This document shows positions 497 through 14,671 of a DNA stretch of 39,126 nt, one piece after another. Source of the stretch: an uncultured Cellvibrionales bacterium (GTDB lineage Bacteria; Pseudomonadota; Gammaproteobacteria; Pseudomonadales; Porticoccaceae). Position numbers and translations under genes: made by a program. The DNA is taken from assembly GCA_913031645.1 (NCBI GenBank), contig CAJWFB010000008.1, positions 1 through 39,126 on the forward strand, written 5' to 3'. The first letter of the stretch is position 1, and each line of letters begins with the position of its first letter. The notes under the pieces were generated by a model. That model was not told where the DNA came from. It worked only from the letters and a program-made list of their open reading frames with translations, and searched no databases.

Positions 497-530
497 GGGG
501 CTGTCTCCATCTATCTTTTAAGGTAATTTT

Positions 531-2351
531 TTAGGCGTTAACTTCAGCGGCAATAGCCGCACTGACTGGGATTGAAGCATCCAACATTAATTGACCGAAA
601 CCTTTGCCTTGAGCGTCATTGCGAATGCTCGCCATACCCCCACCACCCAAAACATCGTGGATTAAAAAGTTAATGGCGTTGGTACCCGGCATCAGGTAGC
701 GCTCGACGTAACACAGACTATTTTGCGCGGCACCCTCGGGTAAAAAATGTGCAAAGCGCTCAGCCACGGCCTGCTCGTTCAAGGCGGCATAAATGTAAGG
801 AAGATACTCAGGCTGGCGAGCAATAATGCCGACATTGGCCTTGTTGCCTTTGTCACCGCTACGAGCCAGTGCCAGCTTAATCAGGGACACATTCACGGTA
901 TTGCTATCTAGAGACGCGTTGGGCGCCTGTGGCCGCTCAATGAGGTCGCGATTTAGCGGAGCTCCCAGAGCGTCTGGGCAATCAATGTAGGTACCATCCA
1001 TTTCGATTTGAATCTTTGTAGAGCCTTTGGGAAGTACAAATGAAAACAACCTCACCACAGGCGATGGCTTAGGCCGCGCGCCAGCAAATCCCGACAACCC
1101 TGGCGGTGTGGCCAGACCAAGGCCCACACATTCTTTTAGGAGTATTCCAATACCCGCCGGATCTGAATGTTTTACAGCAATCTTCATGGACAGTTCACGG
1201 CAGTTAGCGACAGCAGCATTAACACCATACTGGCTCTCTGCGCCAATTAGCTCAACACTGGTTTCAGTGTAATCAGGCAAGCCCACCATCTTAAGTGTTC
1301 TGCGTGATGCAGTGAAAATAGCGGCGGCAAGCTTGTTGGCTTTCTTATCGGCATCAAACCCATAGAATGTCATGGTAGTGCCGCCGCGGAATTGATCGGC
1401 ATACGTAGTGCATACCTTATAACTATCTGGCGCGGTCAAACCCGTGGCGCCCTTCACTTCCACCAGATTTTTTCCGACCTCAGTCAGTGTTACCTTGGAG
1501 AAGTCACAGACCACATCGGGAAGGATATAGGCTTGAGGATCACCGATTTCGTAAACCATTTGCTCGGCGATCGTACCTACTGAGACAAGACCACCGGTTC
1601 CCTCGGGCTTAGAGCAAACAAAGCTGCCATCGGCTTTAATAGCCGCAATGGGGTAACCGATGTTTTCAAGGTTATGTGATAGCTCCCAATCGGTGAAGTT
1701 ACCCCCAGTTGCCTGAGGTCCGCATTCTAAAATGTGTCCTGCAAGAGAGCCCATGGCCAGCTGATCGAGATCATCCCGACCCCAGCCAAAGGCGTTAATG
1801 CAGGCGCCCAACGTCACAGCACTGTCGACACAACGCCCAGTAACAACGATGTCTGCGCCCTCTTGCAGCGCTCTTGCCACGGGAAAAGCACCCAAATAAG
1901 CATTGATACTCGCCACTTTGTCCACCGTAGGGAAATCATCACCCGAGAACATTTCTTTGTAGCCATGGGCAGCAATTTGATCACGCTGGCTAATCATGTC
2001 ATCCCCCAACACACAAGCGACTTTGAGATTAAGGCCCAGTTCAGCAATGACCGCGCGCAGCGCATTGGCGCAGGCCTGAGGATTAACACCCCCAGCGTTA
2101 GACACAATGCGTACACCCTGACGGGCAATTTCTTTAAGGTTGGGTTTCATCGCGGCACTGACAAAATCTAAGGCATAGCCAGTGTCTGGGTTTTTAGCCC
2201 TAGCGCGGGCCATAATCGACATAGTGATTTCGGCGAGGTAGTCATAGACAATAAAGTCTATGTTTTCATCTTTTAGCAATTGCGGTGTCGCTCGGACAGC
2301 ATCACCCCAAAAACCACTGGCACCTGCAATACGAATCGTCTTGTCACTCAT
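531..2351 (-). CDS. AtuA-like acyclic terpene utilisation family protein (DUF1446 plus C-terminal AtuA-type domain)
   Basis: A 606-residue protein with two parts. Residues 1 to about 450 are the DUF1446/AtuA core, starting RIAGASGFWGDAVRATPQLL and including a VVTGRCVDSAVTLG stretch. Residues about 490 to 595 are the small C-terminal domain, marked by LARSGDKGNKANVGI. Separate and fused versions of these domains sit beside acyl-CoA carboxylases in citronellol/geraniol (Atu), leucine and related pathways. The biochemical role of the family is not firmly known. The start is supported by a GGGAG site before ATG 2351. The carboxyltransferase gene follows in the same direction, and a direct-repeat promoter module (2398-2463) precedes it. 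The likely role is a step in catabolism of a carboxylated branched acyl-CoA. Family call is firm; function is inference. Confidence 0.85.
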   Translation of the reverse strand: MSDKTIRIAGASGFWGDAVRATPQLLKDENIDFIVYDYLAEITMSIMARARAKNPDTGYALDFVSAAMKPNLKEIARQGVRIVSNAGGVNPQACANALRAVIAELGLNLKVACVLGDDMISQRDQIAAHGYKEMFSGDDFPTVDKVASINAYLGAFPVARALQEGADIVVTGRCVDSAVTLGACINAFGWGRDDLDQLAMGSLAGHILECGPQATGGNFTDWELSHNLENIGYPIAAIKADGSFVCSKPEGTGGLVSVGTIAEQMVYEIGDPQAYILPDVVCDFSKVTLTEVGKNLVEVKGATGLTAPDSYKVCTTYADQFRGGTTMTFYGFDADKKANKLAAAIFTASRRTLKMVGLPDYTETSVELIGAESQYGVNAAVANCRELSMKIAVKHSDPAGIGILLKECVGLGLATPPGLSGFAGARPKPSPVVRLFSFVLPKGSTKIQIEMDGTYIDCPDALGAPLNRDLIERPQAPNASLDSNTVNVSLIKLALARSGDKGNKANVGIIARQPEYLPYIYAALNEQAVAERFAHFLPEGAAQNSLCYVERYLMPGTNAINFLIHDVLGGGGMASIRNDAQGKGFGQLMLDASIPVSAAIAAEVNA

Positions 2352-2397
2352 GGTGATTACTCCCTGAAATAGTCCAGACCGGCATTCAATGGTTTAA

Positions 2398-2463
2398 ATA
2401 GTACGTTGCCATGACTATTTAATCATTGGATTGTATGCCATCAACATGAGAGCTTATGCCAAT
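2398..2463 (-). promoter_or_regulatory. Promoter module A: 21-bp-spaced direct repeats with GATTA and TACTAT -10, upstream of the AtuA-like gene
   Basis: Read on the minus strand, the box TTGGCATAA (distal, 2455-2460 core) and the box GATGGCATA (proximal, 2434-2439 core) are direct repeats exactly 21 bp apart, two helical turns. GATTA follows at 2424-2420, and a TACTAT -10 candidate lies at 2403-2398. Transcription would start about 40 bases before the ATG at 2351. By hand alignment, 52 of 66 positions match the module upstream of the acyl-CoA synthetase (13036-13101). The third copy is at 6854-6919. The arrangement fits an AraC-family activator site overlapping or abutting a weak -35. Confidence 0.65.
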
Positions 2464-2465
2464 CT

Positions 2466-3782
2466 CTATTTAACCAATCCCGGCGTTAACAGCTTAGATT
2501 TAGCTCTTTCCAGATAGATTGAGGCCATTATAAAGCTCGCGGGAGCGCCCCAGGCAATAATATCCGCGGTTAGTAGCGCCTTGGTGAGGGGCTCAAAAAC
2601 CGAGTTAGCGGAAAAGACATCGCTGAGAACACCCGTCATCAGAGCCCCTATACCGAGCCCAAGAAGGTTACAGGCGACCAGTAGCAAACCGGTCATAACC
2701 CCTCGCAATCGCACCGGAGTCAGGTCTTGTACGGTTGAAAATGCCGGGCCATAAAACGAGCTTACGCTGAACATACCCGCCGCCATACCAATATAAAATA
2801 ACGAAGATGTGGGCGAAACAAAGCGAAAAGAAATGAGTAATGGCGTTATGCAGAGCATTAGGTAGGCAAGGAATCTGACTCTTCCACCCTTATAGCGGGA
2901 CTGATACCAGTCACTGAGCATACCGCCTAAAAAAGTACCCGCGGTACCAAATGTAATATAGATGAGTCCATAGGTGGCACTGATTTCACCAATGCCAAAA
3001 CCTCTCTCTCGCTCAAGCCAGACAATGGCAAACTGGCCGGCACCCATAGGAATATGTAAAAATACAGCCCCAATCATGGTCCAGGCCAAGGCTGGCGTCG
3101 ATTTAATCGTCGAGATCACTTCTGACACAACGCGTCGCCAATTGCCGGTCATCAAGTCTGCTTGGCCCTCTTCCTCTGCATTTGCAGCCTTTTCTTCCAT
3201 GGCCCCGCGTTTTGGGTCCTTCAAAAACAACAAACCCAACGCCAACACTAACCCTGTAGCACCCAATACGAAAAAGCAATTGCGCCAGCCAATCATCGGA
3301 CCAAGAATACCGGCAACAATAAAGCTACCCCCAGCGCCCAAAGGTACACCCAGATAGTAAATGCCCGTGGCAGTCCCCCGGTTGGCCTTAGGAAACAGAT
3401 CGGCAATCATTGAGATAGCTGAGGGTGCCATCACCGACTCGCCAACACCGATAAATAGGCGCGCCACACCAATCTGTATAAAGCTTTTCGCCATACCTGA
3501 TAAGGCGGTTAGAACGCTCCACAGCACAAGCCCTGCGGCTATGAGCTTTGGACGATGTACTCGATCAGCCAGGGCACCCATAAACAGACCCATAATAGAG
3601 TAAAAAAATACGAAAACTGGGCCTGTCAGCAAGCCAAACTGCGAGTCACTTAAGTTGAGATCGCTAATAATAGATGTGCCAAAACTGACAATAAGTGTTC
3701 GATCTACCATATTGAGGATATTCAGAATTAATAAAAATACCAATATTCCCCTAGCACCCTTTGGTGACCGTACCGTTTCCAT
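2466..3782 (-). CDS. MFS transporter (spinster/phthalate-permease-like)
   Basis: A twelve-helix major facilitator superfamily permease of the inner membrane, 438 residues from the chosen start. The N-terminus enters the membrane with ILVFLLILNILNMVDRTL. The loop between helices 2 and 3 carries the MFS signature GALADRVHRPKLI, and GVGESVMAPSAISMIADLFP resembles the helix 4-5 motif of organic-acid permeases. The ATG at 3782 is preferred over the one at 3788 because an AAGGG site lies 8 bases before the former but only 2 before the latter. It lies downstream of the phosphotransferase gene with a 32-base gap and is probably co-transcribed with it. Location among acyl-CoA genes suggests uptake or export of a hydrophobic carboxylate, but the substrate is unknown. 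Confidence 0.85.
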   Translation of the reverse strand: METVRSPKGARGILVFLLILNILNMVDRTLIVSFGTSIISDLNLSDSQFGLLTGPVFVFFYSIMGLFMGALADRVHRPKLIAAGLVLWSVLTALSGMAKSFIQIGVARLFIGVGESVMAPSAISMIADLFPKANRGTATGIYYLGVPLGAGGSFIVAGILGPMIGWRNCFFVLGATGLVLALGLLFLKDPKRGAMEEKAANAEEEGQADLMTGNWRRVVSEVISTIKSTPALAWTMIGAVFLHIPMGAGQFAIVWLERERGFGIGEISATYGLIYITFGTAGTFLGGMLSDWYQSRYKGGRVRFLAYLMLCITPLLISFRFVSPTSSLFYIGMAAGMFSVSSFYGPAFSTVQDLTPVRLRGVMTGLLLVACNLLGLGIGALMTGVLSDVFSANSVFEPLTKALLTADIIAWGAPASFIMASIYLERAKSKLLTPGLVK

Positions 3783-3820
3783 ATTCATGACCCTTGGTTT
3801 ACTCTTTTTTATAATGTTTT

Positions 3821-4897
3821 TTATAATTCTGATTTAGCAATCAATGAACGGCAGTACTCACCCAGTTGGGTAGTCGCTTGCCCATAATTGGTAAAACGCT
3901 GATCTTGAGTCAGCTTGTTCACATAGCGGTAGTACAACTGCTGCAGAATACCAATCAGCCGCCAGTAGCCGTAAACCTCATAAAAATCCCAGTTAGACAC
4001 GTCAAAACCGGTTCTTTCACCATAGTAAGCGATAATCTCCTCCCGTCGCATCATACCCGGAGCGTCTGATGGCTGCTTTAAAATAGCTTTTAACGCCACT
4101 GGGTCGTCGCTGTGTACCCAATAAGCCAACGCATTAGACAAATCCATTAGCGGATCACCCAAAGCTGCCATTTCCCAGTCCAGTACTGCCACTACATTAA
4201 ACGGATCACTGGGATCCAGCATGACGTTGTCAATACGGTAATCCCCATGGATAACCGCGGCAGGTAATGTGCTGTTGGTTGCATTGGGAATATTAGCCAC
4301 TAGCCATTCGCGCACATCTTCAAAATCAGGAACATCTGGCGTTTGAGCATTGGCAAAGCGTTTATTCCATCCCCGTATCTGACGCTCGGCATACCCCTGT
4401 GGCTTGCCAAATTCACTGAGGCCTGCCACTTTAATATTAACCGTATGCAGCTCAATCAATTTATCGAAAATCACCTTACTAAACCGGTTGTGGTCGCTTT
4501 CTGAGAAACGCCAAGCAGCCGGGATTTTGTCTTTTACCAAGACTCCGTCTATTTTCTCCATCAAATAGAACTCGGAACCTAGCATGGACTCATCGTCGGT
4601 ATAAAAAAACGCTTTGGGAACCGCCGGATAGGCCTTTTCTAGTGCACTAATCACTCGATACTCACGAATCATCGAATGTGCGCTGGCGGCCTTGGCGCCT
4701 GGTGGTGGCCTGCGCAAAACCAACTCACGATTATCATAACCAATTAGGTAGGTTAAGTTAGACGCTCCTGAGGGAAACTGCTTAATGATAGGCTCGCCTT
4801 GCAAGCCCGGCACTACTGTTTTGAGCACGTTATCTAGCTGCTTAGCATCAAGCTCCTCACCTTGGCGAACATCGATGGTCGGGTTAGATGAGTCCAT
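3821..4897 (-). CDS. APH-type phosphotransferase family protein (ACAD10-like kinase)
   Basis: A 358-residue protein of the aminoglycoside-phosphotransferase-like fold. It has an N-terminal lobe with FPSGASNLTYLIGY and LVLRRPPPGAKAASAHSM, as in the ACAD10/ACAD11 kinase domain. The catalytic loop VIHGDYRIDNVML supplies Asp and Asn, and VLDWEMAALGDPLMDL is the metal-binding segment. These bacterial relatives usually sit next to acyl-CoA dehydrogenases and appear to act on hydroxylated acyl substrates rather than antibiotics. The ACAD10/11 kinase domain phosphorylates 4-hydroxyacyl-CoA in lactone/4-hydroxyacid breakdown. Here the dehydrogenase is encoded separately at 5636-6808. The MFS gene follows on the same strand. 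No clear Shine-Dalgarno site precedes ATG 4897. I infer a role in acyl-CoA catabolism, not drug resistance. Confidence 0.85.
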   Translation of the reverse strand: MDSSNPTIDVRQGEELDAKQLDNVLKTVVPGLQGEPIIKQFPSGASNLTYLIGYDNRELVLRRPPPGAKAASAHSMIREYRVISALEKAYPAVPKAFFYTDDESMLGSEFYLMEKIDGVLVKDKIPAAWRFSESDHNRFSKVIFDKLIELHTVNIKVAGLSEFGKPQGYAERQIRGWNKRFANAQTPDVPDFEDVREWLVANIPNATNSTLPAAVIHGDYRIDNVMLDPSDPFNVVAVLDWEMAALGDPLMDLSNALAYWVHSDDPVALKAILKQPSDAPGMMRREEIIAYYGERTGFDVSNWDFYEVYGYWRLIGILQQLYYRYVNKLTQDQRFTNYGQATTQLGEYCRSLIAKSEL

Positions 4898-5216
4898 ATC
4901 TTCATTTCAAAACAATTTTGATGGGGTATTATGGGGATTGATTACCCATTTGCCTAGCAAGATTATATAAAGACAGAGTATGCCGATTAGTCATCTCATT
5001 TATGATAGGTCTCAACGATCAAACAAAAGGCAATAACGGCGCTCTCTGAAACATAATCTAGTTATTTAAAATCAGACTCATACCTTTAGGCGAAAATTAT
5101 TTTATGACCGTTAATGCTCTTGATTTCTTAGGCATAGGTTAATAGAGTAAACGGCATAAACAGGTATAGGCAGTTCAGGTAATCGTGCGTCACTAACATT
5201 TAAGAGGAAACTAGGT
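4898..5216. other. Divergent intergenic region between the phosphotransferase and SCP2 genes
   Basis: These 319 bases separate two divergent genes and must contain both promoters. On the plus strand GGCATA occurs at 5131-5136 and 5153-5158, a direct repeat with 22-base spacing that recalls the 21-bp modules elsewhere. It lacks their GATTA and -10 blocks, so I do not count it as a copy. I see no convincing -35/-10 pair, small gene or RNA here. Confidence 0.5.
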
Positions 5217-5516
5217 ATGTCATTGGAATTAGTAACAGCAGGTCTAAAAGAGAAAGTGGGTGAAGATTGCGGACTTGGCGCAAAGCTAAAGTTTGATTTT
5301 GGCGATGATGGCGTAATGGTTTTAGATGCCACTCAAGTGCCTAACACGGTCAGCAATGAAGATAGCGATGCTCAGTGCACTATGGCGCTCAGCATAGAGA
5401 ACTTTATGGAAATGGCTGAAGGCAAACTGGACGGCACTGCTGCCTTTATGTCTGGGAAGCTAAAGATCCAGGGAGATATGAGTATCGCCATGAAACTAGG
5501 GCCGATCCTAGCTTAA
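5217..5516 (+). CDS. SCP2 sterol-binding domain protein
   Basis: A stand-alone 99-residue sterol carrier protein 2 domain, the usual length for the bacterial single-domain form. It shows the fold's diagnostic middle (KLKFDFGDDGVMVLDATQ, then DAQCTMALSIENFMEMAEGKLD) and the C-terminal strand-helix segment GTAAFMSGKLKIQGDMSIAMKL. SCP2 domains bind fatty acyl-CoAs, sterols or other lipids in a hydrophobic tunnel and are cytosolic in bacteria. An AGAGGA site lies 10 bases before the ATG. A strong terminator follows immediately, so the gene is transcribed alone. Its position between lipid-catabolic genes suggests carriage of the same class of substrate. The ligand cannot be inferred. Confidence 0.9.
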   Translation: MSLELVTAGLKEKVGEDCGLGAKLKFDFGDDGVMVLDATQVPNTVSNEDSDAQCTMALSIENFMEMAEGKLDGTAAFMSGKLKIQGDMSIAMKLGPILA

Positions 5517-5537
5517 TAAAAAAATTTAAATTGTATT

Positions 5538-5575
5538 AAAACGCCCCGCTATTTGTGTAATGGGGCGTTTTTTTA
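5538..5575 (+). terminator. Rho-independent terminator of the SCP2 gene
   Basis: A 10-bp stem pairs AAAACGCCCC (5538-5547) with GGGGCGTTTT (5562-5571), followed by more T. The flanking A-run means it could also serve the convergent acyl-CoA dehydrogenase gene from the other strand. Confidence 0.88.
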
Positions 5576-5635
5576 TTTTCGCTTTGACTTAGGAGTCTTG
5601 AGCATAAGCCTCTCAATTGTTGCTGATGCTCTGTA

Positions 5636-6808
5636 TCAAAGCCCGAATTGGCGCGCGGCTAAATCGCGCATGATTTCCTCAGAACCACCACCAATGGCAT
5701 TAACTCTGACCTCACGGTAAATTCGCTCTACTCTGTTGCCACGCATATACCCTATGCCGCCAAGAATTTGCATCGCTTCTCGAGCACAAAACTCCATGGT
5801 CTGACTGCACTGGACTTTTAGTAAGGCAATGTCACCTGCATTCTCATTACCCGCTTCCACCTCTTGGCACACAAGTTGAAGATAGGCTTGGGTAGCATTA
5901 AGTCGCATTTTCATCTCCGCAATTTTATGCCTAATCACCTGATGATCTGCCAGCCGCTGACCAAAGGTTGTGCGCTCTCGGGCCCAGGCGACCGCGTCTT
6001 CTAGGCAAACGCGTGAGAACCCTTCCATCGCCGCAGCCATCGCTAAACGCTCCGCATTAAAATTATTCATAATGACACTGAAGCCTTTATTTTCTTGGCC
6101 AATCAGGTTGCCAACAGGGACACGCACGTTGTCAAAATAAATGGTTGCGGTATCTGAACACCACCACCCCTGCTTTTTGTCTAAGGCAGTACGCGAGACA
6201 CCCTCAGCATCTGCTGGAATTAATAGGGCAGACACGCCCCCAGCGCCCTCGCCTCCAGTTCTAACCGCCGTGGTGAACCAATTAGCATTCATACCTCCGG
6301 TGATATAGGTCTTAGAGCCGTTGACCACATAATGGTCGCCGTCTAATCGCGCGGTGGTTGTTAAATGCGCCACGTCCGATCCAGCGCCAGGCTCTGTAAT
6401 ACCGAGTGAAATACGTTTAGTGCCGGCCAATACAGGCGGCGCTACCATTTGTTTAATCGCTTCGCTACCAAAGTTAATCACCGGCGGCAATGCAATGCCA
6501 TGTACCAGTAAGGTTGCACTGACTCCACCCACAGCAATACGGGCCATTTCTTCATTGAGAATAATGCTGTACCAGATATCAATCCCTTCTGTGACGCCAC
6601 CAAACTCTTCTGGATAGCCCAACCCGAGAATGCCAACCGCCGCTGATTTAGGCCATAGCTCATCTGGAATACGGCCATCTTCATCCCATTGTGCGGCGTA
6701 AGGAATCACTTCACGATCAAAGAAACGCCGCAGCTGTGCTCGCCATTCATGATGTTCGGGTTTCAAGAAAGAGTTAGGTAGTCGAGCGCTATCAAAATCT
6801 AATGACAT
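5636..6808 (-). CDS. Acyl-CoA dehydrogenase
   Basis: An FAD-dependent acyl-CoA dehydrogenase of 390 residues, normal for the family. It would oxidise an acyl-CoA to the trans-2-enoyl-CoA and pass electrons to ETF in the cytosol. Visible motifs are ISLGITEPGAGSDVAHL (the family's first signature, flavin and substrate contact), GSKTYITGGMNANWF, and the C-terminal QILGGIGYMRGNRVERIYRE with GGGSEEIM, the segment that usually carries the catalytic Glu. Two ATGs lie six bases apart (6814 and 6808). The GGTGAGGA site is almost touching the first and 8 bases from the second, so I use 6808 (MSLDFD). Promoter module C lies directly upstream. Chain-length preference is not predictable; short-chain or branched substrates are plausible. 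Confidence 0.93.
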   Translation of the reverse strand: MSLDFDSARLPNSFLKPEHHEWRAQLRRFFDREVIPYAAQWDEDGRIPDELWPKSAAVGILGLGYPEEFGGVTEGIDIWYSIILNEEMARIAVGGVSATLLVHGIALPPVINFGSEAIKQMVAPPVLAGTKRISLGITEPGAGSDVAHLTTTARLDGDHYVVNGSKTYITGGMNANWFTTAVRTGGEGAGGVSALLIPADAEGVSRTALDKKQGWWCSDTATIYFDNVRVPVGNLIGQENKGFSVIMNNFNAERLAMAAAMEGFSRVCLEDAVAWARERTTFGQRLADHQVIRHKIAEMKMRLNATQAYLQLVCQEVEAGNENAGDIALLKVQCSQTMEFCAREAMQILGGIGYMRGNRVERIYREVRVNAIGGGSEEIMRDLAARQFGL

Positions 6809-6853
6809 AATCATTCCTCACCGAGTCGTAGACAGAATTTTGTAAAGATAATG

Positions 6854-6919
6854 ATACTAGGCAGAGTCTATTGTGTAATCAAGCTAATGAGCGCCAATTT
6901 ATTGGGATTAAACGCCAAC
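6854..6919 (-). promoter_or_regulatory. Promoter module C: 21-bp-spaced TTGGCG direct repeats with TTGATTA and TAGTAT -10, upstream of acyl-CoA dehydrogenase
   Basis: On the minus strand TTGGCG occurs twice exactly 21 bp apart (plus-strand complements at 6913-6918 and 6892-6897). TTGATTA follows, then a TAGTAT -10 at 6859-6854. GATTA and TAsTAT sit at the same distances from the proximal box as in modules A and B, although the box sequence differs (GGCG instead of GGCATA). TTGATT to TAGTAT has a 17-base spacer, a good sigma-70 promoter. Transcription would begin about 40 bases before ATG 6808. Confidence 0.6.
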
Positions 6920-6927
6920 AAAAGTCT

Positions 6928-7962
6928 TTATTTACGGCGGTAATCTCGCGGTGAAACACCATGCCAGCTTTTAAATGCACTAGAAAAAGACCCCTGATCG
7001 GCATAGCCGAGTAGAAACGCTATTTCGGTAATTCCAAGACGCCCATCTGCTAGATAACGCAGTGCAATTCGCGATCGAACTTCTTGTAAGATATTTAAAA
7101 AATTTGTATCTCGATCTGACAGGCGACGCTGCAAGGTCCGGCGGGAAACATTTAGTTTACTGGCCAGTTTATCGATAGTGACCTCTCCCTCTGGCAAGTA
7201 TTGAGCAATCGATTGCCTGAGACTAAGCAGTAACTCATCGGATGGGTCTTCATCCTCAAAAAAATCTCGAAACGGATGACTATGATCGGGCCCCTCTTGG
7301 TAGTCCTGCTTTAGCATGGGCAGGTGGAGCGCATCTCTATGAAAGAAAATACTACTATGAGGCTGATCAAAACTAAGGTTATTGCCAAACAGTATCTCCA
7401 AATTAACCAGATTTGTAGGCTTTGAATAACTAAAACTGGCTTTAGCAACGTTGACTGGCATGATACAGATGGAGTTAATGATTCTTACCGAGGCAGACAA
7501 CATTTCATCTGACAAAAAGCGTTTTCGCTGGGTACTTAATAATAGAGGCTCCCACCGTAACTCTACGAGATCGCCATCACGATGAGCCCGAATCTCACCA
7601 AGGTCACCGCGCAATTTTAGGGTACTAGGCATGAGGTTTAGATAATCTCTAAAGGACTTACATACCGTTGCCATGTACAGCTGGAAATTTAATCCCTTAA
7701 GATAACCAATCCTACCCACGATTAAGCCTATATCTGGATCGTTTGACGCAAGGGCAACCGCTTGATAGAGACGGTAATAGACCATTACTGGAAATCTGCG
7801 ATCTGGAATGCTGAGATCTTTTACATCTAACCCCACCTCGTTCAACAAAACCTTTTGGTCCACATCCAACTGCTCTGCCACTTGCAACAGCGTAATCAAT
7901 GGTGCCGCATAAACGGACCATGAGGGGTCAATAATCTGATCTACTGGCTCAGGTTTAGACAT
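6928..7962 (-). CDS. AraC-family transcriptional regulator (Arabinose_bd-type N-terminus)
   Basis: A 344-residue DNA-binding regulator. The N-terminal two-thirds (about residues 10-230) is the PF12625-like ligand/dimer domain of the OruR/ArgR-type AraC subfamily, with LLQVAEQLDVDQKVLLNEVGL and LPMLKQDY-type segments. The C-terminal about 100 residues are the double helix-turn-helix: IDKLASKLNVSRRTLQRRLS and ITEIAFLLGYADQGSFSSAF with GVSPRDYRR. The ATG at 7962 is used rather than the in-frame TTG at 7965. It lies directly upstream of the acyl-CoA dehydrogenase and of module C. AraC proteins bind direct repeats spaced by about 21 bp, so this is the obvious candidate to act at modules A, B and C. 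That link is inference. Inducers in the subfamily are amino acids, aromatics or lipids. Confidence 0.9.
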   Translation of the reverse strand: MSKPEPVDQIIDPSWSVYAAPLITLLQVAEQLDVDQKVLLNEVGLDVKDLSIPDRRFPVMVYYRLYQAVALASNDPDIGLIVGRIGYLKGLNFQLYMATVCKSFRDYLNLMPSTLKLRGDLGEIRAHRDGDLVELRWEPLLLSTQRKRFLSDEMLSASVRIINSICIMPVNVAKASFSYSKPTNLVNLEILFGNNLSFDQPHSSIFFHRDALHLPMLKQDYQEGPDHSHPFRDFFEDEDPSDELLLSLRQSIAQYLPEGEVTIDKLASKLNVSRRTLQRRLSDRDTNFLNILQEVRSRIALRYLADGRLGITEIAFLLGYADQGSFSSAFKSWHGVSPRDYRRK

Positions 7963-8000
7963 CAAATGCAGCTATTCAAATGTTTTTAATGATTAGTCAG

Positions 8001-8018
8001 TTTAGCACTCGCGCTAAA
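8001..8018. promoter_or_regulatory. Operator-like inverted repeat TTTAGC-N6-GCTAAA between the araC-type gene and imuA
   Basis: Perfect 6-bp arms (8001-8006 and 8013-8018) are separated by six bases, 39 bases upstream of the regulator's ATG and about 105 bases upstream of the imuA SOS box. The size suits a dimeric repressor or an autoregulatory site for the minus-strand gene. There is no T-run, so it is not a terminator. The protein that binds is unknown. Confidence 0.3.
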
Positions 8019-8122
8019 TTGGATACAACGATTCCCAGTACCAACTTATTAACGACTTAATAAAAAAATCTACTTTTTCTACCCTGTATTTCTATTGACT
8101 TATCGACTGAAAAATATCAATA

Positions 8123-8142
8123 TACTGTATATATAACCAGTA
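8123..8142 (+). promoter_or_regulatory. LexA (SOS) box of imuA-imuB
   Basis: The 20-mer TACTGTATATATAACCAGTA has the CTG-N10-CAG core of gammaproteobacterial LexA sites with an alternating AT centre and symmetrical TA ends. It lies 26 bases before the imuA ATG and downstream of a TTGACT (8095-8100) that could be the -35, so LexA binding would cover the -10. Confidence 0.9.
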
Positions 8143-8168
8143 TTAACTTATCTATCAGTTATTAAAAA

Positions 8169-8906
8169 ATGTCCAGTGAACCATTATTAGACAGTCTCCT
8201 TTTACGTCATGACACTTGGCGAGGACGCAATCGATCACTGCGTAAGCATGTGGTTGCTACCGGCAATAACAGTCTGGATGGCTTGTTACTCGGCGGCTGG
8301 CCAGTGTCGGCTCTTACAGAGCTGGTGACGCAACAAGACGGCATAGGTGAATTGAGCATACTGTTGCCCACGATCAAACATTACACTAGTGAAGATAAAT
8401 TGTGTGTATGGCTGGACCCACCTTATCAACCCTATGCACCAAGCCTGGTCAATGCCGGAATTCCTCTTGATAAACTGTTAATTGTACGCAGTAAAAACAG
8501 TAAGGAATGGCTGTGGGCAGCGGAGCAATCTATTCGCGGCAAGGCGCTACTTTTCGCTTGGTCCAATAAAGCACAACCACGCTATTCTGCACTTAGAAAA
8601 TTGCAGTTAGCCGCCACAGAAAGTTTGGCCCCTGCTTTTTTATTTAGTCCTCATAACGCACTTAAGACTCACTCTCCCGCCCTATTACGCATAGAACTTG
8701 AAAGTCTAGAGCCTAATGCTTTGTCCATTACTCTACACAAGCTGAGAGGAAAAATGCCTGGTGCAAAAATACAGATCTCTGTTGGGGATGTAATGGCAGA
8801 GCGCATGCTACTCGACAAGTTACCGGTTAATATTCATTACCCAAAATCACAACAGTCAGGTTACCCACTATCGAAAAAAGATGATCTTCAATCTCTAAAT
8901 ACTTAG
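8169..8906 (+). CDS. imuA: ImuA, SOS mutagenesis cassette protein (RecA/SulA-like)
   Basis: A 245-residue ImuA, the RecA-like accessory factor of the ImuA-ImuB-DnaE2 translesion mutasome. The conserved entry segment TGNNSLDGLLLGGWPVSALTELV matches the family's LPGGGWPxGALTEL-type motif. VWLDPPYQPYAPSLVNAGI and the KALLFAWSNKAQPRYSALRKLQLAA segment are also typical. It has no complete Walker A motif, as is usual. It is preceded by a near-perfect LexA box and followed by imuB after 3 bases, so the two form an SOS-induced operon. No Shine-Dalgarno site is visible before the ATG. The cassette's polymerase gene dnaE2 is not adjacent but lies at 15507. Confidence 0.92.
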   Translation: MSSEPLLDSLLLRHDTWRGRNRSLRKHVVATGNNSLDGLLLGGWPVSALTELVTQQDGIGELSILLPTIKHYTSEDKLCVWLDPPYQPYAPSLVNAGIPLDKLLIVRSKNSKEWLWAAEQSIRGKALLFAWSNKAQPRYSALRKLQLAATESLAPAFLFSPHNALKTHSPALLRIELESLEPNALSITLHKLRGKMPGAKIQISVGDVMAERMLLDKLPVNIHYPKSQQSGYPLSKKDDLQSLNT

Positions 8907-8909
8907 CCG

Positions 8910-10406
8910 ATGAAGAAACTGCCAATAACAATGCAAACAGCGCCTCATCAAATAGATCAGAATATTTGGCTATATATAAAATTACCTCAACTGGCCATTG
9001 AAGCAGTGACAACTAACACTGCTATCCTTTTAAAAGAGGTGCCAGTTGCGGTTGCTTACTCACACAAAAATGCCCAATGTATCGATTGCTGTAATCAATC
9101 TGCCAAGGCTTGGGGTGTCGATCCTCTGATGTCAGTTTCTACCGCTCTGGCTATTTGCCCTGATTTAACCGTGCTGACAAAAAACGTACAGCAAGAACAA
9201 CAGCTACTGCAACAATTGGCACTGATCGCCTACCGCTTTAGCCCTGAGATTATTATTGATACTGATGGCTTATGGTTAGATCTGTCAGGCTGCGCCCAGC
9301 TTTTTAATGGCTATAACAGGCTGCTAAAAAAACTTTACACCCAACTATGTCGACAATCTGTTAACGCCACTAGCGGCGTTGGGAAAAGCCCTATGGCGGC
9401 GAAATTACTCTGCAGTACTAAATTTCACCAGTATTTACCCGACAGCGGTGAAATACAGTGTGCTCTAATGACAACTGCACTGAACACACTACCGAGTACA
9501 AACAAGCAACAGCAGAATTTTAAGCAGTTGGGATTAACCACCATTGGTGATTTACTGGCCCTCCCTCGGTCAGCCTTAAGCCAGCGCTTTAATAGTGAAT
9601 TAATGGATACTCTGCAACAACTCCAGGGTGACAAGCCCTGCTTATTAACACGTTTCAAACCTGCCAATGAATTTCACAGTGCAGTTCAGAACCCTCAGGG
9701 GTTGTATAGCAAAGAGAGCTTATTGTTTCCCATGAAGACTCTCTTACAGCGCCTGTACCAATACTTAATGGCCAGACAATGTTATAGCCGTAAATTAGTA
9801 TGGCGATTTGAACCCTTACTGGGCAAGCATCAGTTCATGACCGTTAGGTTATCTGGTAGCAACCATAGCGGGTCAAGTTTGTTGAGCCTGAGTCGAATAC
9901 AATTAGAGCGTTTAGAGCTGCCGAGTAGTATTGAGCAGGTGTCACTTTTCTGTGATCAATTTACAGCTATGCCCGGGCTTAGTTTTGATTTGTTTGGTGA
10001 TCAAATGTCTCTACAAGAAAATACAGCTGAGTTAATTGACAACCTCAATGCTCGATTGGGCGCTGAGGCCTTATCAAGACCTACTATAAATACTGAGCAC
10101 TTGCCCGAATTGGCTGGCAACATAGGCGCTATTGATCAATCAAGCGACCCCGAGCAACAACCTGGTCAGACACAGAAACCATTGTGGTTACTCCCTAAGC
10201 CAGCGCCTATTAAGTTGCATAATCAACAGCTGTATTGGCGCAAACCACTAACAATTGTCAGTGGCCCAGAACGACTGTGCGGTAACTGGTGGCAGTCCGA
10301 GCAACAGCGCGATTACTATCTTGCTTGTGACAGTAAAGGTGCTCGTTACTGGATATTTAGAGAGTCCACAAACAAACGGTGGTTTGTCCATGGGATCTTC
10401 GCTTGA
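8910..10406 (+). CDS. imuB: ImuB, Y-family polymerase-like protein of the SOS mutasome
   Basis: A 498-residue Y-family-like protein. In ImuB the polymerase fold is kept, but catalysis is lost and the protein works as a hub joining the beta clamp, ImuA and DnaE2. Here the first catalytic Asp of the DinB start motif is replaced in LYIKLPQLAIEA. The second site reads TDGLWLDLSGCAQLFNG, where DinB has a D-E pair followed by a similar strand, so the Glu is gone. GVGKSPMAAKLLC and the helix-hairpin-helix region LGLTTIGDLLALPRSAL fit the family. LSFDLFGDQMSL near residue 360 lies where ImuB proteins carry a clamp-binding peptide, but I cannot confirm it. It follows imuA by 3 bases and shares its SOS promoter. 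Confidence 0.92.
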   Translation: MKKLPITMQTAPHQIDQNIWLYIKLPQLAIEAVTTNTAILLKEVPVAVAYSHKNAQCIDCCNQSAKAWGVDPLMSVSTALAICPDLTVLTKNVQQEQQLLQQLALIAYRFSPEIIIDTDGLWLDLSGCAQLFNGYNRLLKKLYTQLCRQSVNATSGVGKSPMAAKLLCSTKFHQYLPDSGEIQCALMTTALNTLPSTNKQQQNFKQLGLTTIGDLLALPRSALSQRFNSELMDTLQQLQGDKPCLLTRFKPANEFHSAVQNPQGLYSKESLLFPMKTLLQRLYQYLMARQCYSRKLVWRFEPLLGKHQFMTVRLSGSNHSGSSLLSLSRIQLERLELPSSIEQVSLFCDQFTAMPGLSFDLFGDQMSLQENTAELIDNLNARLGAEALSRPTINTEHLPELAGNIGAIDQSSDPEQQPGQTQKPLWLLPKPAPIKLHNQQLYWRKPLTIVSGPERLCGNWWQSEQQRDYYLACDSKGARYWIFRESTNKRWFVHGIFA

Positions 10407-10508
10407 TTCACCGCTTATTAGCGTAATCTCCAGGGCCTAAATCTTTGATCTATACTAATGTGACACATTTATCATTCAACTACAGATAATCTTATCAAGG
10501 AGAAGTTT

Positions 10509-11357
10509 ATGAGACGTTTTATTATTATTTGCTCGGCATTACTCACAATAGCGGGGTGTGCACAGGATAGAGTCGAGGTTAAACCAGTCGAGGCGGCACC
10601 AGAGCCAACGATGACTGAGATAGCCGAGTCCAATCCTAGCTATTGGGGATATATTGATTACCTATGGGCCGAGAATGGAGATTCATTCTCTGAAGAGGGG
10701 TTCGCCGCTTTTCTGAGCGACTGGATTGTCGAAGCCAATAAGACCGGCGTCTCATATACTAGCTTTGGTTATGTACCTAAAGAGTCAACCGAAAATTTTG
10801 ACGGAATTTGGGCTGTAGCCTGGAAAAGCAAGGCTCTTCGAGACGAAGCTTGGGAGAAATGGATAGCCAATAAGTCCGCCGAAAATCTTTCGGAAAATCA
10901 CTCTGAAACAATAACATTAGGCGGCGAAGATTATAAAAACGTGTTTGGTTTTTATGCCTTTCGACCACGTGAAATGTCAAATCCGTGGAATGATATAGGG
11001 CCAGAACAAGAGCCTTATAATGTGGACGTTATGTTCTGTAGCTTCAATGAAGGTCAAGGCGCTGATCAGTTAAAAAGTACTATTTCGAGTGAATTTAGTC
11101 CTTGGCTCGATGCTTATCAAGAGGAAAATCCCGAAGCATCCTATAATTTCAGCATCGAAGTACCATCATATGATCCTGATCCCGACTTCGATTATCTTTG
11201 GAAGAATATCCACCGAAATGAAGCACAAGCTAATGCAGGCAATGCGGCATGGGCTGAAACTGGTGGAGAGATACAAAAGAAATTTGACACTATCGCCACC
11301 TGCCAGCCACCTGTTAGGTTTGCGGGCTATTCTTTTGTCGATTATGACGAAGCATAA
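10509..11357 (+). CDS. Uncharacterised lipoprotein with an apparent internal duplication
   Basis: I do not recognise this 282-residue protein. It starts with a lipoprotein signal peptide (MRRFIIICSALLTIAGC), so Cys17 would be acylated and the protein anchored to a membrane in the envelope. The mature part is rich in Trp and acidic residues. Two halves look related. One has WAENGDSFSEEG, an FL-x-x-W helix, VSYTSFGYVP and FDGIWAVAW. The other has FNEGQGADQ, a WLDAY helix, ASYNFSIEVP and FDYLWKNIH. Both then lead to an AW helix. This suggests a tandem pair of small alpha/beta units, possibly of dimeric-barrel type. AAGGAGA precedes the ATG by 6 bases. It lies between imuB and a convergent gene, and a stem-loop follows its stop. 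Confidence 0.75.
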   Translation: MRRFIIICSALLTIAGCAQDRVEVKPVEAAPEPTMTEIAESNPSYWGYIDYLWAENGDSFSEEGFAAFLSDWIVEANKTGVSYTSFGYVPKESTENFDGIWAVAWKSKALRDEAWEKWIANKSAENLSENHSETITLGGEDYKNVFGFYAFRPREMSNPWNDIGPEQEPYNVDVMFCSFNEGQGADQLKSTISSEFSPWLDAYQEENPEASYNFSIEVPSYDPDPDFDYLWKNIHRNEAQANAGNAAWAETGGEIQKKFDTIATCQPPVRFAGYSFVDYDEA

Positions 11358-11365
11358 TGAAGATA

Positions 11366-11396
11366 AGAACCCACGAATATCATATTCGTGGGTTCT
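11366..11396. terminator. Perfect 15-bp stem-loop between convergent genes
   Basis: AGAACCCACGAATAT (11366-11380) is followed by one base and its exact reverse complement (11382-11396). It lies 9 bases after the lipoprotein stop and 12 bases beyond the stop of the convergent acyl-CoA synthetase gene. Neither strand has a T-run after the stem. It may therefore act as a Rho-assisted terminator or as a 3'-end stabiliser for both transcripts. Confidence 0.6.
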
Positions 11397-11408
11397 CCAG
11401 TTCTAAAA

Positions 11409-12941
11409 TCAAGATGTAAATTCATCTTTTAGTTTAAACTTTTGAACCTTACCTGCGGGATTGCGCGGTAAAACATCAATAAAGCGCAATTCACTGGGTA
11501 GTTTATAGCGGGCCAGCGACTCTCCGGCAAAGGCTCTCAATCCTTCAAGGTCGAGACTCGCGCCCTCCTCAAGAACGGCAATAGCCGTAACGGCTTCGCC
11601 CCACTTGTCGTCCGGCAAGCCAATAACCGCAACCTCAACAATGGCTGGGTGACCGTAAAGAATGCTCTCCACTTCGGCGGGATAAACATTTTCGCCACCA
11701 GTGATGATCATGTCCTTGACTCGATCGCACAAGAACAAAAAGTCTTCGTCATCCAGATAACCAATATCACCGCTGTGGAACCAACCCAACTCATCAATGG
11801 CCTCTGCGGTTGCTTCGGGGCGATTCCAATAGCCCTTCATGACATTCGGTCCTTTAATACAAACTTCACCATGCACACCAGCCGCAACCGGATTATTGTC
11901 GCCATCAACAATCTGTACTTCAGTGTACATAGGTGCTTTGCCCGCTGAACCCACTTTAAGCATGGCTAAATCACTGCTCAATAGACTAGCAAATGGCGCC
12001 GTTTCTGTTAACCCATAACCCTGACAGAAACTTACGCCTCTCTCACCATAGGTCTTGATTAATGGCACCGGCACCGGCGCTCCGCCACAGATCAAGGCAG
12101 TGACACTGGATAGGTCTGTGCTGGCAAAGTTGTCATGTTGTGCCATCATCAAGAACATAGTCGGCGCACCAAACATACTACCGACCTTGTGCTCTTCGAT
12201 AAGAGCTAGCACTTCTCCTGCTTCAAAACTACGCAGTAAAATGACCTCAATACCTTTGGCCAACGATAACAGTGTGGTTACGTTGAGTCCTCCAATATGA
12301 AATAAGGGTGCACAAGTTAGCGTTGTGGAGGTCATTGTGTCTTCGCCAAAGCAGACGTTAATACTGTTCCAGAACACATTGCCATGGGTTAGCATAGCGC
12401 CTTTGGGAAGCCCGGTGGTACCCGAGGTATACATGATAAAGGCGATATCATCAGCCTCTACATTTTCACTGCCGTGCGCTGGTTTAGCCTCAGCCATGAG
12501 TGGCGCCAAAGATTCCCAACCATCCGCATCTGACTCTATGGTGAGATAGCGTGTGCAATTCAGATTGGCCTTTTCTGAATCAATCAAAGGACGCAACATA
12601 TCATCAGCAAACATCACGGTGATGTCTGCATCGTTAGTAATAAACCGAACTTCAGGGCCCGTCAAACGGAAATTAAGAGGTACAAAAACTGCGCCTAAGC
12701 AGCCACAGGCATAGAGTAACTCAAGGAATGCTGGATGATTAAGTCCTATATAACCAACACGATCGCCCTTTGAAACACCGCCATCTCGAAGAATAGTTGT
12801 TAGTCGCCTCACTTGATCACCTAACTCTGCACAGGTCAACGTCTGACCCTCAAATGTGAGTGCTCTGGCGTTTGGTGTTAACAATGCACGACGTAAAATA
12901 GTGTGGCCTAAACCAATATTTGCTGCTTGTGAATTTGACAT
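11409..12941 (-). CDS. Acyl-CoA synthetase (AMP-dependent ligase, FadD3/long-chain-like)
   Basis: A 510-residue acyl-adenylate/CoA ligase that would activate a fatty or other carboxylic acid with ATP and CoA. It has the P-loop-like motif IMYTSGTTGLPKGAMLTHGNV, the YGLTETAPF adenine-binding segment, GWFHSGDIGYLDDEDFLFLCDR with the ribose-binding Asp, the GGENVYPAEVE hinge and the C-terminal NPAGKVQKFKL with the catalytic Lys. AAAGGAA lies 6 bases before the ATG. Promoter module B upstream (13036-13101) ties it to the AtuA-like operon and acyl-CoA dehydrogenase, for which it could supply the first step. The substrate is not predictable; the closest general types are medium or long-chain and cyclic-acid ligases. 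Confidence 0.93.
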   Translation of the reverse strand: MSNSQAANIGLGHTILRRALLTPNARALTFEGQTLTCAELGDQVRRLTTILRDGGVSKGDRVGYIGLNHPAFLELLYACGCLGAVFVPLNFRLTGPEVRFITNDADITVMFADDMLRPLIDSEKANLNCTRYLTIESDADGWESLAPLMAEAKPAHGSENVEADDIAFIMYTSGTTGLPKGAMLTHGNVFWNSINVCFGEDTMTSTTLTCAPLFHIGGLNVTTLLSLAKGIEVILLRSFEAGEVLALIEEHKVGSMFGAPTMFLMMAQHDNFASTDLSSVTALICGGAPVPVPLIKTYGERGVSFCQGYGLTETAPFASLLSSDLAMLKVGSAGKAPMYTEVQIVDGDNNPVAAGVHGEVCIKGPNVMKGYWNRPEATAEAIDELGWFHSGDIGYLDDEDFLFLCDRVKDMIITGGENVYPAEVESILYGHPAIVEVAVIGLPDDKWGEAVTAIAVLEEGASLDLEGLRAFAGESLARYKLPSELRFIDVLPRNPAGKVQKFKLKDEFTS

Positions 12942-13035
12942 GAAAATTTCCTTTGTAGTTTTTATTGCACCGACGATTTTTTCACATCAGCGCCCCTCTC
13001 TGCATTCCTCTCATTTAACGGTCATAATCAGACAC

Positions 13036-13101
13036 ATAGTACGTTTCTATGCTTGTCTAATCTTTGGTTTATATGCCATCAACCATAGCGTTTATGCCAA
13101 T
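13036..13101 (-). promoter_or_regulatory. Promoter module B: 21-bp-spaced direct repeats with GATTA and TACTAT -10, upstream of acyl-CoA synthetase
   Basis: On the minus strand TTGGCATAA and GATGGCATA repeat with 21-bp spacing (plus-strand core complements at 13093-13098 and 13072-13077). GATTA follows nine bases after the proximal box, and TACTAT lies at 13041-13036. ATTGGCATAA, TTGATGGCATA and AACGTACTAT are identical to module A. The 5' leader would be about 88 bases, longer than for the other two copies. Confidence 0.65.
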
Positions 13102-13330
13102 TAGTACTCATTCAAATAACTGATACAAAAAAGACAGGCGCAATTTTTAACAACAAACCACTGCGCAACCCCCTCCAGCGAACCGCAATTATAATTGTCT
13201 AAAAACACCTGTCAAAAGTAGCGCTTCAAACAAGATAATGATCCCGATGTCTATCGTCGTGGAGATTACTTTGGGTCAAAGTGACGAGCCCTATTCAGAA
13301 TAGCTTTAAGAATATAATAAACCGATCTAA

Positions 13331-13368
13331 GAGTGCTTTAACACTCGTGATTCTCTGTACTCTATAAT
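13331..13368 (+). promoter_or_regulatory. Probable metY promoter with an inverted repeat over the -35
   Basis: A consensus -10 TATAAT lies at 13363-13368, 31 bases before the ATG. The best -35 is weak (TTAACA, 13338-13343, spacer 19). GAGTG (13331-13335) and CACTC (13342-13346) form an inverted repeat across the -35, which could be an operator. The regulator is unknown. Confidence 0.4.
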
Positions 13369-13399
13369 AGGGCCAAATCACTAATAAGGACATTGCTCC

Positions 13400-14671
13400 A
13401 TGAAAATTGAAACTCAAGCCATCCATGCCGGATTTGAAGATGACCCAACAACGCGTGCCGTTGCTGTCCCTATCTATCAAACAACTTCCTATAGTTTTCG
13501 GGATACACAGCATGGTGCGGATCTATTCAACCTGGCAGAACCGGGCAATATTTACACGCGCATTATGAACCCCACTAACGATGTCCTAGAGCAGCGTATG
13601 GCACAACTAGAAGGTGGTGTTGGCGCGCTGGCTGTCGCATCGGGCATGGCCGCAATCACAGCAGCTATTCAAACTGTTGCTCGTGCCGGAGACAATATTG
13701 TCAGTGTCAGTCAACTGTATGGTGGCACCTACAACTTTTTCGCGCACTCTCTGCCCAACCAAGGCATTGAAGCTCGCATGGCCTCCGGTGATGATATCGA
13801 TGCACTAGAGGCATTAATTGATGACAATACTAAAGCGCTGTTCTGTGAATCGATCGGTAACCCAGCTGGCAATATCGTTGACATTAGGGCTCTATCAGAT
13901 ATGGCGCACAAGCATGGTGTTCCGGTGATTGTCGATAACACGGTTGCCACACCGATACTGTGCCGACCCTTTGAACAAGGCGCTGATATCGTCATTCACT
14001 CGCTCACTAAATACATTGGAGGGCATGGTACCTCGGTGGGCGGTGTGATTATTGATTCAGGTAATTTCCCCTGGAAGGATCACCCTCGTTTCCCTGCATT
14101 TAATGAGCCAGATCCGTCTTATCATGGTGTGGTTTATGCGGATGCATTGGGCGAAGCCGCCTTTATTGGCCGTGCACGCGTTGTGCCTCTGCGCAACATG
14201 GGTGCCGCTATTTCACCCTTTAATTCGTTCTTGATTTTGCAAGGTTTAGAGACCTTGGCCTTACGCATGGAGCGACATACTGAGAATGCTCTTGCTGTTG
14301 CTAAATACCTGTCCGCACATGACGTGGTTGACTGGGTCAATTATGCAGGCCTTGAAACTGACAAGTACTATGAATTGGCAAAGACCGTAGTCAGTGGCAA
14401 GCCATCAGCTATTTTGAGCTTTGGTATCAAGGGTGGCGAAGCCGCCGGCGCTAAGTTCATTGATGCATTACAATTGGTTAAGCGGCTGGTCAATATTGGT
14501 GATGCAAAGTCTTTAGCCTGTCATCCCGCCAGCACCACTCATCGTCAGTTAAATGATGAAGAACTGAAAGCAGCAGGCACTAGTCGTGAGATGGTTCGCA
14601 TCTCTGTAGGGATAGAGCATATCGACGATATTATCGCTGATATAACGCAAGCATTGGACGCAGCAAAGTAA
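13400..14671 (+). CDS. metY: O-acetylhomoserine sulfhydrylase (aminocarboxypropyltransferase)
   Basis: A 423-residue PLP enzyme of the Cys/Met metabolism family that makes homocysteine from O-acetylhomoserine and sulfide. It starts IETQAIHAGFEDDPTTRAVAVPIYQTTSY, typical of the MetY branch. It carries YTRIMNPTNDVLEQRMAQLEGG, ASGMAAI for phosphate binding, and HSLTKYIGGHGTSVGGV with the PLP lysine at residue 204. Length and the PRFPAFNEPDPSYHG segment fit MetY rather than the shorter MetB/MetZ. AAGGA precedes the ATG by about 8 bases. It is a single-gene unit with its own promoter and a strong terminator. It splits the SOS mutasome genes, with which it has no known functional link. Confidence 0.93.
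   Translation: MKIETQAIHAGFEDDPTTRAVAVPIYQTTSYSFRDTQHGADLFNLAEPGNIYTRIMNPTNDVLEQRMAQLEGGVGALAVASGMAAITAAIQTVARAGDNIVSVSQLYGGTYNFFAHSLPNQGIEARMASGDDIDALEALIDDNTKALFCESIGNPAGNIVDIRALSDMAHKHGVPVIVDNTVATPILCRPFEQGADIVIHSLTKYIGGHGTSVGGVIIDSGNFPWKDHPRFPAFNEPDPSYHGVVYADALGEAAFIGRARVVPLRNMGAAISPFNSFLILQGLETLALRMERHTENALAVAKYLSAHDVVDWVNYAGLETDKYYELAKTVVSGKPSAILSFGIKGGEAAGAKFIDALQLVKRLVNIGDAKSLACHPASTTHRQLNDEELKAAGTSREMVRISVGIEHIDDIIADITQALDAAK

Follow-up and report, generated by a model that had tools for sequence, protein, structure and literature searches.

A conserved tandem-repeat promoter module linked to an AraC-family gene in SAR92-type bacteria: a probable small regulon for a GCC/AtuA-type acyl-CoA pathway

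Do three similar 66-bp segments, each located in front of a gene of acyl-CoA metabolism, mark a single regulon, and which protein would read them? The question is raised by contig CAJWFB010000008.1 (assembly GCA_913031645.1; positions 1 to 39,126, forward strand) of an uncultured Cellvibrionales bacterium of the Porticoccaceae. This whole stretch of 39,126 nucleotides, referred to as the window, corresponds to contig C8 in a genome of 1.93 Mb (88% complete); the nearest named relatives, judged by the AraC protein, are labelled Porticoccaceae and SAR92 clade. Modules A, B and C of the window had been ascribed, on a sequence-only reading, to a probable AraC regulon for lipid catabolism. The analysis described here indicates that they are, with high probability, class II activator promoters of one small AraC-regulated regulon, which would serve an acyl-CoA pathway of the geranyl-CoA carboxylase (GCC)/AtuA type. 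(G-numbers denote genomes and L-numbers loci of relatives.)

Modules A, B and C: structure and conservation

On recheck, the coordinates, minus strand and sequence of the three modules were all correct, and the identity of A and B at 52 of 66 positions was confirmed (A/C, 33; B/C, 28). Two TGGC boxes spaced by 21 bp were found in each module, and a -10 hexamer (TACTAT or TAGTAT, i.e., TAsTAT) closed each of them. The modules, their target genes and the regulator gene are as follows:

2397-2464 (66-bp core 2398-2463), minus strand: module A, before atuA; conserved there in relatives
2462-2445, 2441-2424 and 2403-2398, minus strand: distal half-site, proximal half-site and -10 (TACTAT) of module A
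6853-6920 (66-bp core 6854-6919), minus strand: module C, between the araC stop and the dehydrogenase start; conserved in relatives
6918-6901, 6897-6880 and 6859-6854, minus strand: distal half-site, proximal half-site and -10 (TAGTAT) of module C
13035-13102 (66-bp core 13036-13101), minus strand: module B, before the acyl-CoA synthetase gene
13100-13083, 13079-13062 and 13041-13036, minus strand: distal half-site, proximal half-site and -10 (TACTAT) of module B
531-2351, minus strand: atuA, an AtuA-family gene (PF07287 and the AtuA ferredoxin-like domain PF23544), target of module A
5636-6814, minus strand: acyl-CoA dehydrogenase gene, target of module C
11409-12941, minus strand: AMP-forming acyl-CoA synthetase gene, target of module B
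6928-7965 (ATG start at 7962), minus strand: araC, an AraC-family regulator gene (PF12625 and PF12833)

The gap between the end of the preceding gene and the module was 2 bases for A (a major facilitator superfamily, MFS, transporter gene) and 8 bases for C (araC). The box pair alone was unspecific: of nine occurrences of TGGC-N17-TGGC in the window, six were outside the modules. A single degenerate pattern was also weak evidence (two window matches against a chance expectation of 0.17, with B missed). On the other hand, a 68-column matrix derived from 46 non-window modules, which provided a test independent of the window, gave scores of 57.3 (A), 53.8 (C) and 37.3 (B), while the next best place in the 39 kb scored -1.2 and a set of 20 first-order Markov sequences, each as long as the window, reached 4.7 at most. 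In a scan of the whole genome, in which 150 of 498 first-look candidates were scored, a sequence-only model yielded E-values of 5.8e-12, 1.4e-10 and 8.5e-8 for the three modules, followed by a gap to 0.085; since this model was built on 49 modules including the three of the window, the scan with the other-genome matrix is the fair test. A, B and C were the only strong matches among these candidates, and a regulon spread over the genome was rejected.

Conservation was assessed using a window-only matrix (A, B and C), scanned over ~370 bases around the starts of orthologous genes in non-window loci with an araC of at least 60% identity or an araC fragment at a contig end, and each site was compared with 20 shuffles of its region. 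The best forward site exceeded all 20 shuffles before atuA in 20/20 loci and before the dehydrogenase gene in 26/27. The sequence-only reading had named absence of the modules from relatives that keep the genes as an argument against itself; the modules were kept. The single dehydrogenase miss was HTCC2207 (L040), in which the best place was on the other strand; the repeat was present, with the -10 one base nearer. In L059, araC and the module were present with a different dehydrogenase behind them, and no forward site above shuffles was found before atuA or the dehydrogenase gene in L045, L046 and L047, which belong to a group, g10, discussed below. As controls, the best scores of the window-only matrix were -2.7 upstream of imuA, -2.7 upstream of araC and -10.2 upstream of the carboxylase gene; upstream of metY, they were 10.4 in one locus (the synthetase-facing module of L049) and 0.7 in the window. 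Autoregulation of araC through a module was rejected on the basis of the second of these values.

When a refined matrix was used (46 A and C modules, own locus excluded), 64 places scored above 8 across 68 loci, and the genes they faced (the nearest same-strand open reading frame, ORF, within 600 bases) were atuA, dehydrogenase, synthetase, MFS, APH and P450 genes, plus two unannotated ORFs (L077 and L088). In 245 kb from 15 loci whose AraC proteins are distant, one place scored above 8 (9.8, L104). The MFS start of the window scored 3.5 with the window-only matrix, above shuffles and unsupported by the larger matrix; with the other-genome matrix, no module above background was found at the MFS and APH genes of the window, and some relatives have a further module before one of these genes. 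Chance similarity, or a dispersed repeat without a regulatory role, is very improbable. B and the synthetase module of MED-G170 do look like sequence copies; against this, strong own-genome matches were confined to these promoters, the modules lay at similar distances from the start codon in dozens of loci and were conserved in relatives, and no Rfam family reached its gathering score in positions 1-14000, which also led to the rejection of a known RNA element.

The 49 modules aligned without gaps as a tandem direct repeat of a half-site with the consensus tTGGCatnnattCcnaag. The register was usually 21 bp (20 bp in the g10-type dehydrogenase modules of L037, L038, L039 and L110, and 22 bp in some distant loci). 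The GG of the first box was kept in 46/49 distal and 49/49 proximal half-sites, and the TCC of the second box in 23/49 and 25/49, respectively. The -10 hexamer was TACTAT in 26 and TAGTAT in 11 modules (together 37/49), and the best -35 had at least three mismatches to TTGACA in 41/49. GATTA after the proximal hexamer, previously listed as part of the module, is present in A, B and C, yet it occupied that place in only 5/49 modules and was dropped as a site component; conservation at this place lies in tCc-aag, with which the half-site ends. Counted back from the -10 hexamer, the proximal half-site would span approximately -50 to -33, the place that, as a rule, the proximal half-site takes in promoters of class II activators.

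A sigma-54 promoter with TGGC as its -24 element was considered, because the sigma-54 consensus begins with TGGCAC and TTGC is also present in many C-type modules. Its probability is practically nil: the spacing GG-N10-GC was found in 0/49 proximal and 1/49 distal boxes, and the repeat is tandem and accompanied by a sigma-70-type -10.

The AraC-family protein as the candidate regulator

The protein encoded by araC has an N-terminal domain of the effector/dimerisation type (PF12625, the Arabinose_bd N domain; E 1e-21 at residues 35-216) and a C-terminal double helix-turn-helix (PF12833, E 5.2e-21 at 266-344; PF00165, E 9.6e-10). The best family matches were QhpR (NF049968, residues 61-342, 158 bits) and GliR (NF050186, residues 21-343, 133 bits); these scores are far under the curated cut-offs (250 and 570 bits, respectively), so the protein lies outside both equivalogs. 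Full-length orthologues within the genus share 61-93% identity, and several AraC paralogues occur per genome (eight matches in G000).

Among 50 genomes of the genus, an AraC match at E<=1e-60 was found in 30, and a module at E<=1e-5 in 30/30 of these and in 4/20 of the others, with a model built partly from the same genomes. In the four module-bearing genomes without an AraC match, the place of araC was past the contig edge (G069 and G090), or a fragment at the edge (G089) or only the C-terminal frame (G094) was present. In G094 (L180 13961, and L181), araC seems disrupted, and an A-type module stands 301 bases before a GST-like gene, an arrangement as if the atuA and carboxylase genes had been deleted. 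In G029, the regulator is more than 15 kb from the targets and the modules persist. At the order level, an AraC homologue at E<=1e-60 was found in 15/194 genomes; with these homologues (39-50% identity), tandem half-sites within 300 bases after the gene exceeded 200 shuffles in 7/13 evaluable loci (one further locus had 43 bases, and L237 and L243 among the 13 appear to be contigs of L081 and L083). A TGGC pair within 600 bases after araC was found in 11/19 loci of a second set, including Pseudoteredinibacter, Spongiibacter and Pseudomaricurvus, and modules directly followed the gene from SAR92 to Pseudoteredinibacter and Spongiibacter.

The sites were degraded where the regulator was degraded. 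In the g10 genomes with AraC (G020, G042 and G009), the atuA and dehydrogenase promoters had half-site scores of 19 to 42. G060 and G051 contain araC remnants full of stops and keep the pathway genes, and the araC of G054 is cut by the contig end; in these three genomes, the same two promoters scored -4 to 9.5, and the gene that module D (see below) precedes elsewhere gave -7 to -13. Relics were found in the right place: the TGGC boxes before the dehydrogenase gene were altered in G060 and G051, and one TGGC remained before atuA in G054. Some relics still exceeded their own shuffles (G060 at the dehydrogenase gene and G054 at atuA). Since the g10 genomes with intact araC are without the module D gene, there is no positive control for D in this group. 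The earlier designation of the AraC gene beside C as the regulator is thus supported by linkage and by the joint degradation with its sites; that the protein itself reads the modules is a conclusion we infer from sequence comparisons.

In the mechanism proposed, two monomers or a dimer of the AraC protein (6928-7962) would bind the two direct half-sites in the 21-bp register, each half-site offering two recognition boxes approximately one helical turn apart. The proximal half-site would end beside the -35 position and substitute for a good -35 element, and RNA polymerase would use the TAsTAT -10 only with the regulator in place, probably after binding of a pathway intermediate. Within the window, the regulator would control the synthetase, dehydrogenase and atuA-carboxylase genes, and on a different contig the pair of dehydrogenase genes behind module D.

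There is a slim chance that the protein represses rather than activates at the modules. In g10 genomes with a degraded regulator, the genes were kept and -10-like hexamers persisted in the relics, as expected if expression were independent of the protein; on the other hand, the -35 elements are poor, and the proximal half-site, as placed from the -10 hexamer, is at a class II activator position, which argues for activation.

Targets beyond the window and copied promoters

Module D, which first surfaced in regions with weak model matches, precedes a pair of dehydrogenase genes. It was evaluated orthologue-first, with one of the two dehydrogenases being sought: 32/50 genus genomes have an orthologue, and 30 loci were evaluated. 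The module was upstream in 29/30 loci (own genome included), each above 100 shuffles, at a distance of 117-213 bases. In the own genome, it is located on contig C96 and scored 17.5, with a model E-value of only 0.108. The regulon is therefore not confined to the window, yet it looks small. The claim of one pathway regulon across the block stood insofar as the modules are shared, and required amendment in its reach, which extends past the window through module D, and in its substrate class, in which "lipid" gives way to the GCC/AtuA type.

Two further sets of genes may be mentioned as candidates. In G058 (L157 1936, minus strand), a half-site pair scoring 19.8 stands 142 bases upstream of MaoC, SDR and thiolase genes, which were named from their likeness to L149; this gene set is a possible further target. 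G068 and G087 (L197 and L198) carry a second cluster with a dehydrogenase of 72-74% and an AtuA of 34% identity, and a weak module match (E 0.019 and 0.0023, respectively) was found just before its dehydrogenase gene.

Module D also bears on a rival explanation, to which we assign a small probability: the modules are real regulator sites, but they (or at least D) are read by another AraC-family paralogue of the genome. Several paralogues are available, the D half-sites (mostly TGGCGCC and TGGCACC) are somewhat unlike those of A and C, and D is present in three genomes without a detected orthologue (G065, G073 and G091). This explanation sits poorly with the modules that directly follow this araC across genera. 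It also sits poorly with the two genomes whose araC is full of stops, G060 and G051: both have degraded A and C sites, and a D site was found in neither.

Several observations nevertheless weigh against the assignment of the modules to the araC product, or limit its reach. The three genomes just named (76-85% complete) keep module D with no araC orthologue found, their best AraC match having only ~24-29% identity over most of the protein. In G065, araC is gone from its usual place and module D scores 17.2, so this genome is not a clean case of joint regulator and site loss; its missing module C may have been lost in one deletion with araC. Module D is absent from G078, the exception among the 30 loci. 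The co-occurrence in the genus (Fisher p ~1e-9) ignores kinship and linkage within a single cluster, and the degraded cases G060, G051 and G054 may represent a single evolutionary event; in addition, G051 retains two TGGC boxes 19 bp apart before atuA. At the order level, 6/13 loci had no site within 300 bases after the gene, and no TGGC pair followed araC in 8/19 loci of the second set (L069, L071, L074, L077, L079, L080, L081 and L089; L071 and L074 end 72 and 2 bases after araC, respectively). Finally, the synthetase module is rare, occurring in 3/25 synthetase loci plus G090. The interpretation as a small AraC-regulated regulon was retained with these reservations.

The rarity of the synthetase module is accompanied by signs of copying. 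The sister genome G090 carries the B module of the window, while most relatives are without a module before the synthetase gene. Among 18 same-genome module pairs, 16 agreed at 3-11 of 32 weakly conserved columns; A and B of the window agreed at 22, and the synthetase and dehydrogenase modules of L049 at 27. The L049 pair was 88% identical over 67 bp; for this pair and for A/B alike, similarity beyond the module was at background level. A 496-bp stretch before a cytochrome P450 gene in UWMA-0313 was 72% like the araC 3' end, the module and the first dehydrogenase codons. B is thus probably a copy of an A-type module, and B and the MED-G170 synthetase module seem to be copied ~67-bp promoter cassettes whose donors differed. 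We lean slightly towards the view that the ~67-bp promoter behaves as a cassette and is copied in one piece from one pathway gene to another, with an A-type copy (window and G090) and an independent C-type copy (MED-G170) at the synthetase gene.

Two other features of the synthetase gene were noted. A perfect TTGACA-16-TATAAT promoter (13188-13215, minus strand) is located upstream of module B, and among 25 synthetase loci a similar one was found in only one besides the window (L056). The synthetase gene of G029 appears as two separate ORFs (L042 12713-14233).

Pathway, related systems and significance

The genes of the cluster are arranged on the minus strand in the order acyl-CoA synthetase, araC, acyl-CoA dehydrogenase, APH-like, MFS, atuA and the start of a carboxyltransferase beta gene, with imuA-imuB and other genes interspersed on the plus strand. 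The members other than those already given are as follows:

2-496, minus strand: carboxyltransferase beta subunit, after atuA; the contig end cuts the gene
2466-3788, minus strand: MFS transporter gene of the cluster
3821-4897, minus strand: APH-like phosphotransferase gene of the cluster

The genes at 8110-10406, which we take to be the mutagenesis genes imuA-imuB (imuB matches DNA polymerase IV models below the cut-off), adjoin araC in most relatives examined and are preceded by a TACTGTATATATAACCAGTA-like palindrome, presumably LexA-like. A lipoprotein-like ORF of 282 amino acids (10509-11357) had no Pfam match at E 0.001; likenesses were found in L033 and G065.

Part of the evidence on the substrate came from the carboxylase. 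The closest solved structure for the beta subunit of the H231 orthologue was GCC beta (5ikl, 604 bits), followed by 9tps (labelled as propionyl-CoA carboxylase, PCC; 443 bits) and methylcrotonyl-CoA carboxylase (MCC; 3u9r, 440 bits). GCC beta has Gly162 where MCC has Phe (PMC4673880). Residue 164 of the window protein is Gly and was taken as equivalent to Gly162 (chain numbering shifted by one). In the stretch before that residue, where MCC has a three-residue insertion, the carboxylase beta exceeds GCC by one residue and is two residues short of MCC. In H231, enoyl-CoA hydratase and biotin carboxylase genes adjoin the carboxylase beta gene, and GST-like, FadH/OYE-like, HSL-type esterase, MaoC, SDR and thiolase genes and two dehydrogenase pairs are located near by in MOLA455. 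Since the carboxylase resembles geranyl-CoA carboxylase, isoprenoid-type acyl-CoAs are likelier than plain lipid, and the substrate may be an isoprenoid or beta-methyl-branched acyl-CoA handled by a GCC/AtuA-type pathway.

The gene content is shared with the Pseudomonas atu cluster: AtuA-family, GCC-like carboxylase, enoyl-CoA hydratase, acyl-CoA dehydrogenase and synthetase genes. The regulation differs. The classical cluster is controlled by the TetR-type AtuR (PMC9973270 and PMC4847356), a repressor described in the former as acting at two 13-bp inverted repeats upstream of atuA; in the present cluster, the regulator gene that is linked is of the AraC type and the repeats are direct. An AtuR-type operator (AGCAAGCGCTTGG/CCAAGCGCTTGCT) was rejected for the window: matches with up to three mismatches numbered 20 against 13.6 expected (the first at 7204), and none was near atuA or module A.

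The promoter architecture is of the known AraC/XylS type. XylS also recognizes its sites in a 21-bp register, and the XylS-dependent Pm promoter likewise has two direct half-sites, each with a box A and a box B; the corresponding arrangement here is TGGC-5 bp-TTCC, with a weak -35. The boxes of XylS are given in PMC5481539 as direct repeats in which box A and box B are 6 bp apart (TGCA-6 bp-GGTA). The box sequences and the pathway differ from XylS/Pm, and the N-terminal domain is of the PF12625 kind. QhpR and GliR, the best family matches, are likewise related without equivalence. Among the listings searched in an open-access library, no account of this regulator or its site was found, and both seem undescribed.

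Among relatives with the system, the records of HTCC2207, H231, H921 and MOLA455 are not labelled as metagenome-assembled, so cultured strains probably exist. For SAR92-type marine bacteria, the finding would provide a specific regulon, in which a single regulator acts through a defined site at four promoters of this genome and for which a likely substrate class can be named. It would also link an AtuA/GCC-type pathway to a regulator of the AraC type in place of AtuR, which is TetR-type. The loci would also offer natural examples of promoter-module copying and of a regulator and its sites degrading together; if the copying is true, this regulon grows by promoter copying rather than by site-by-site evolution.

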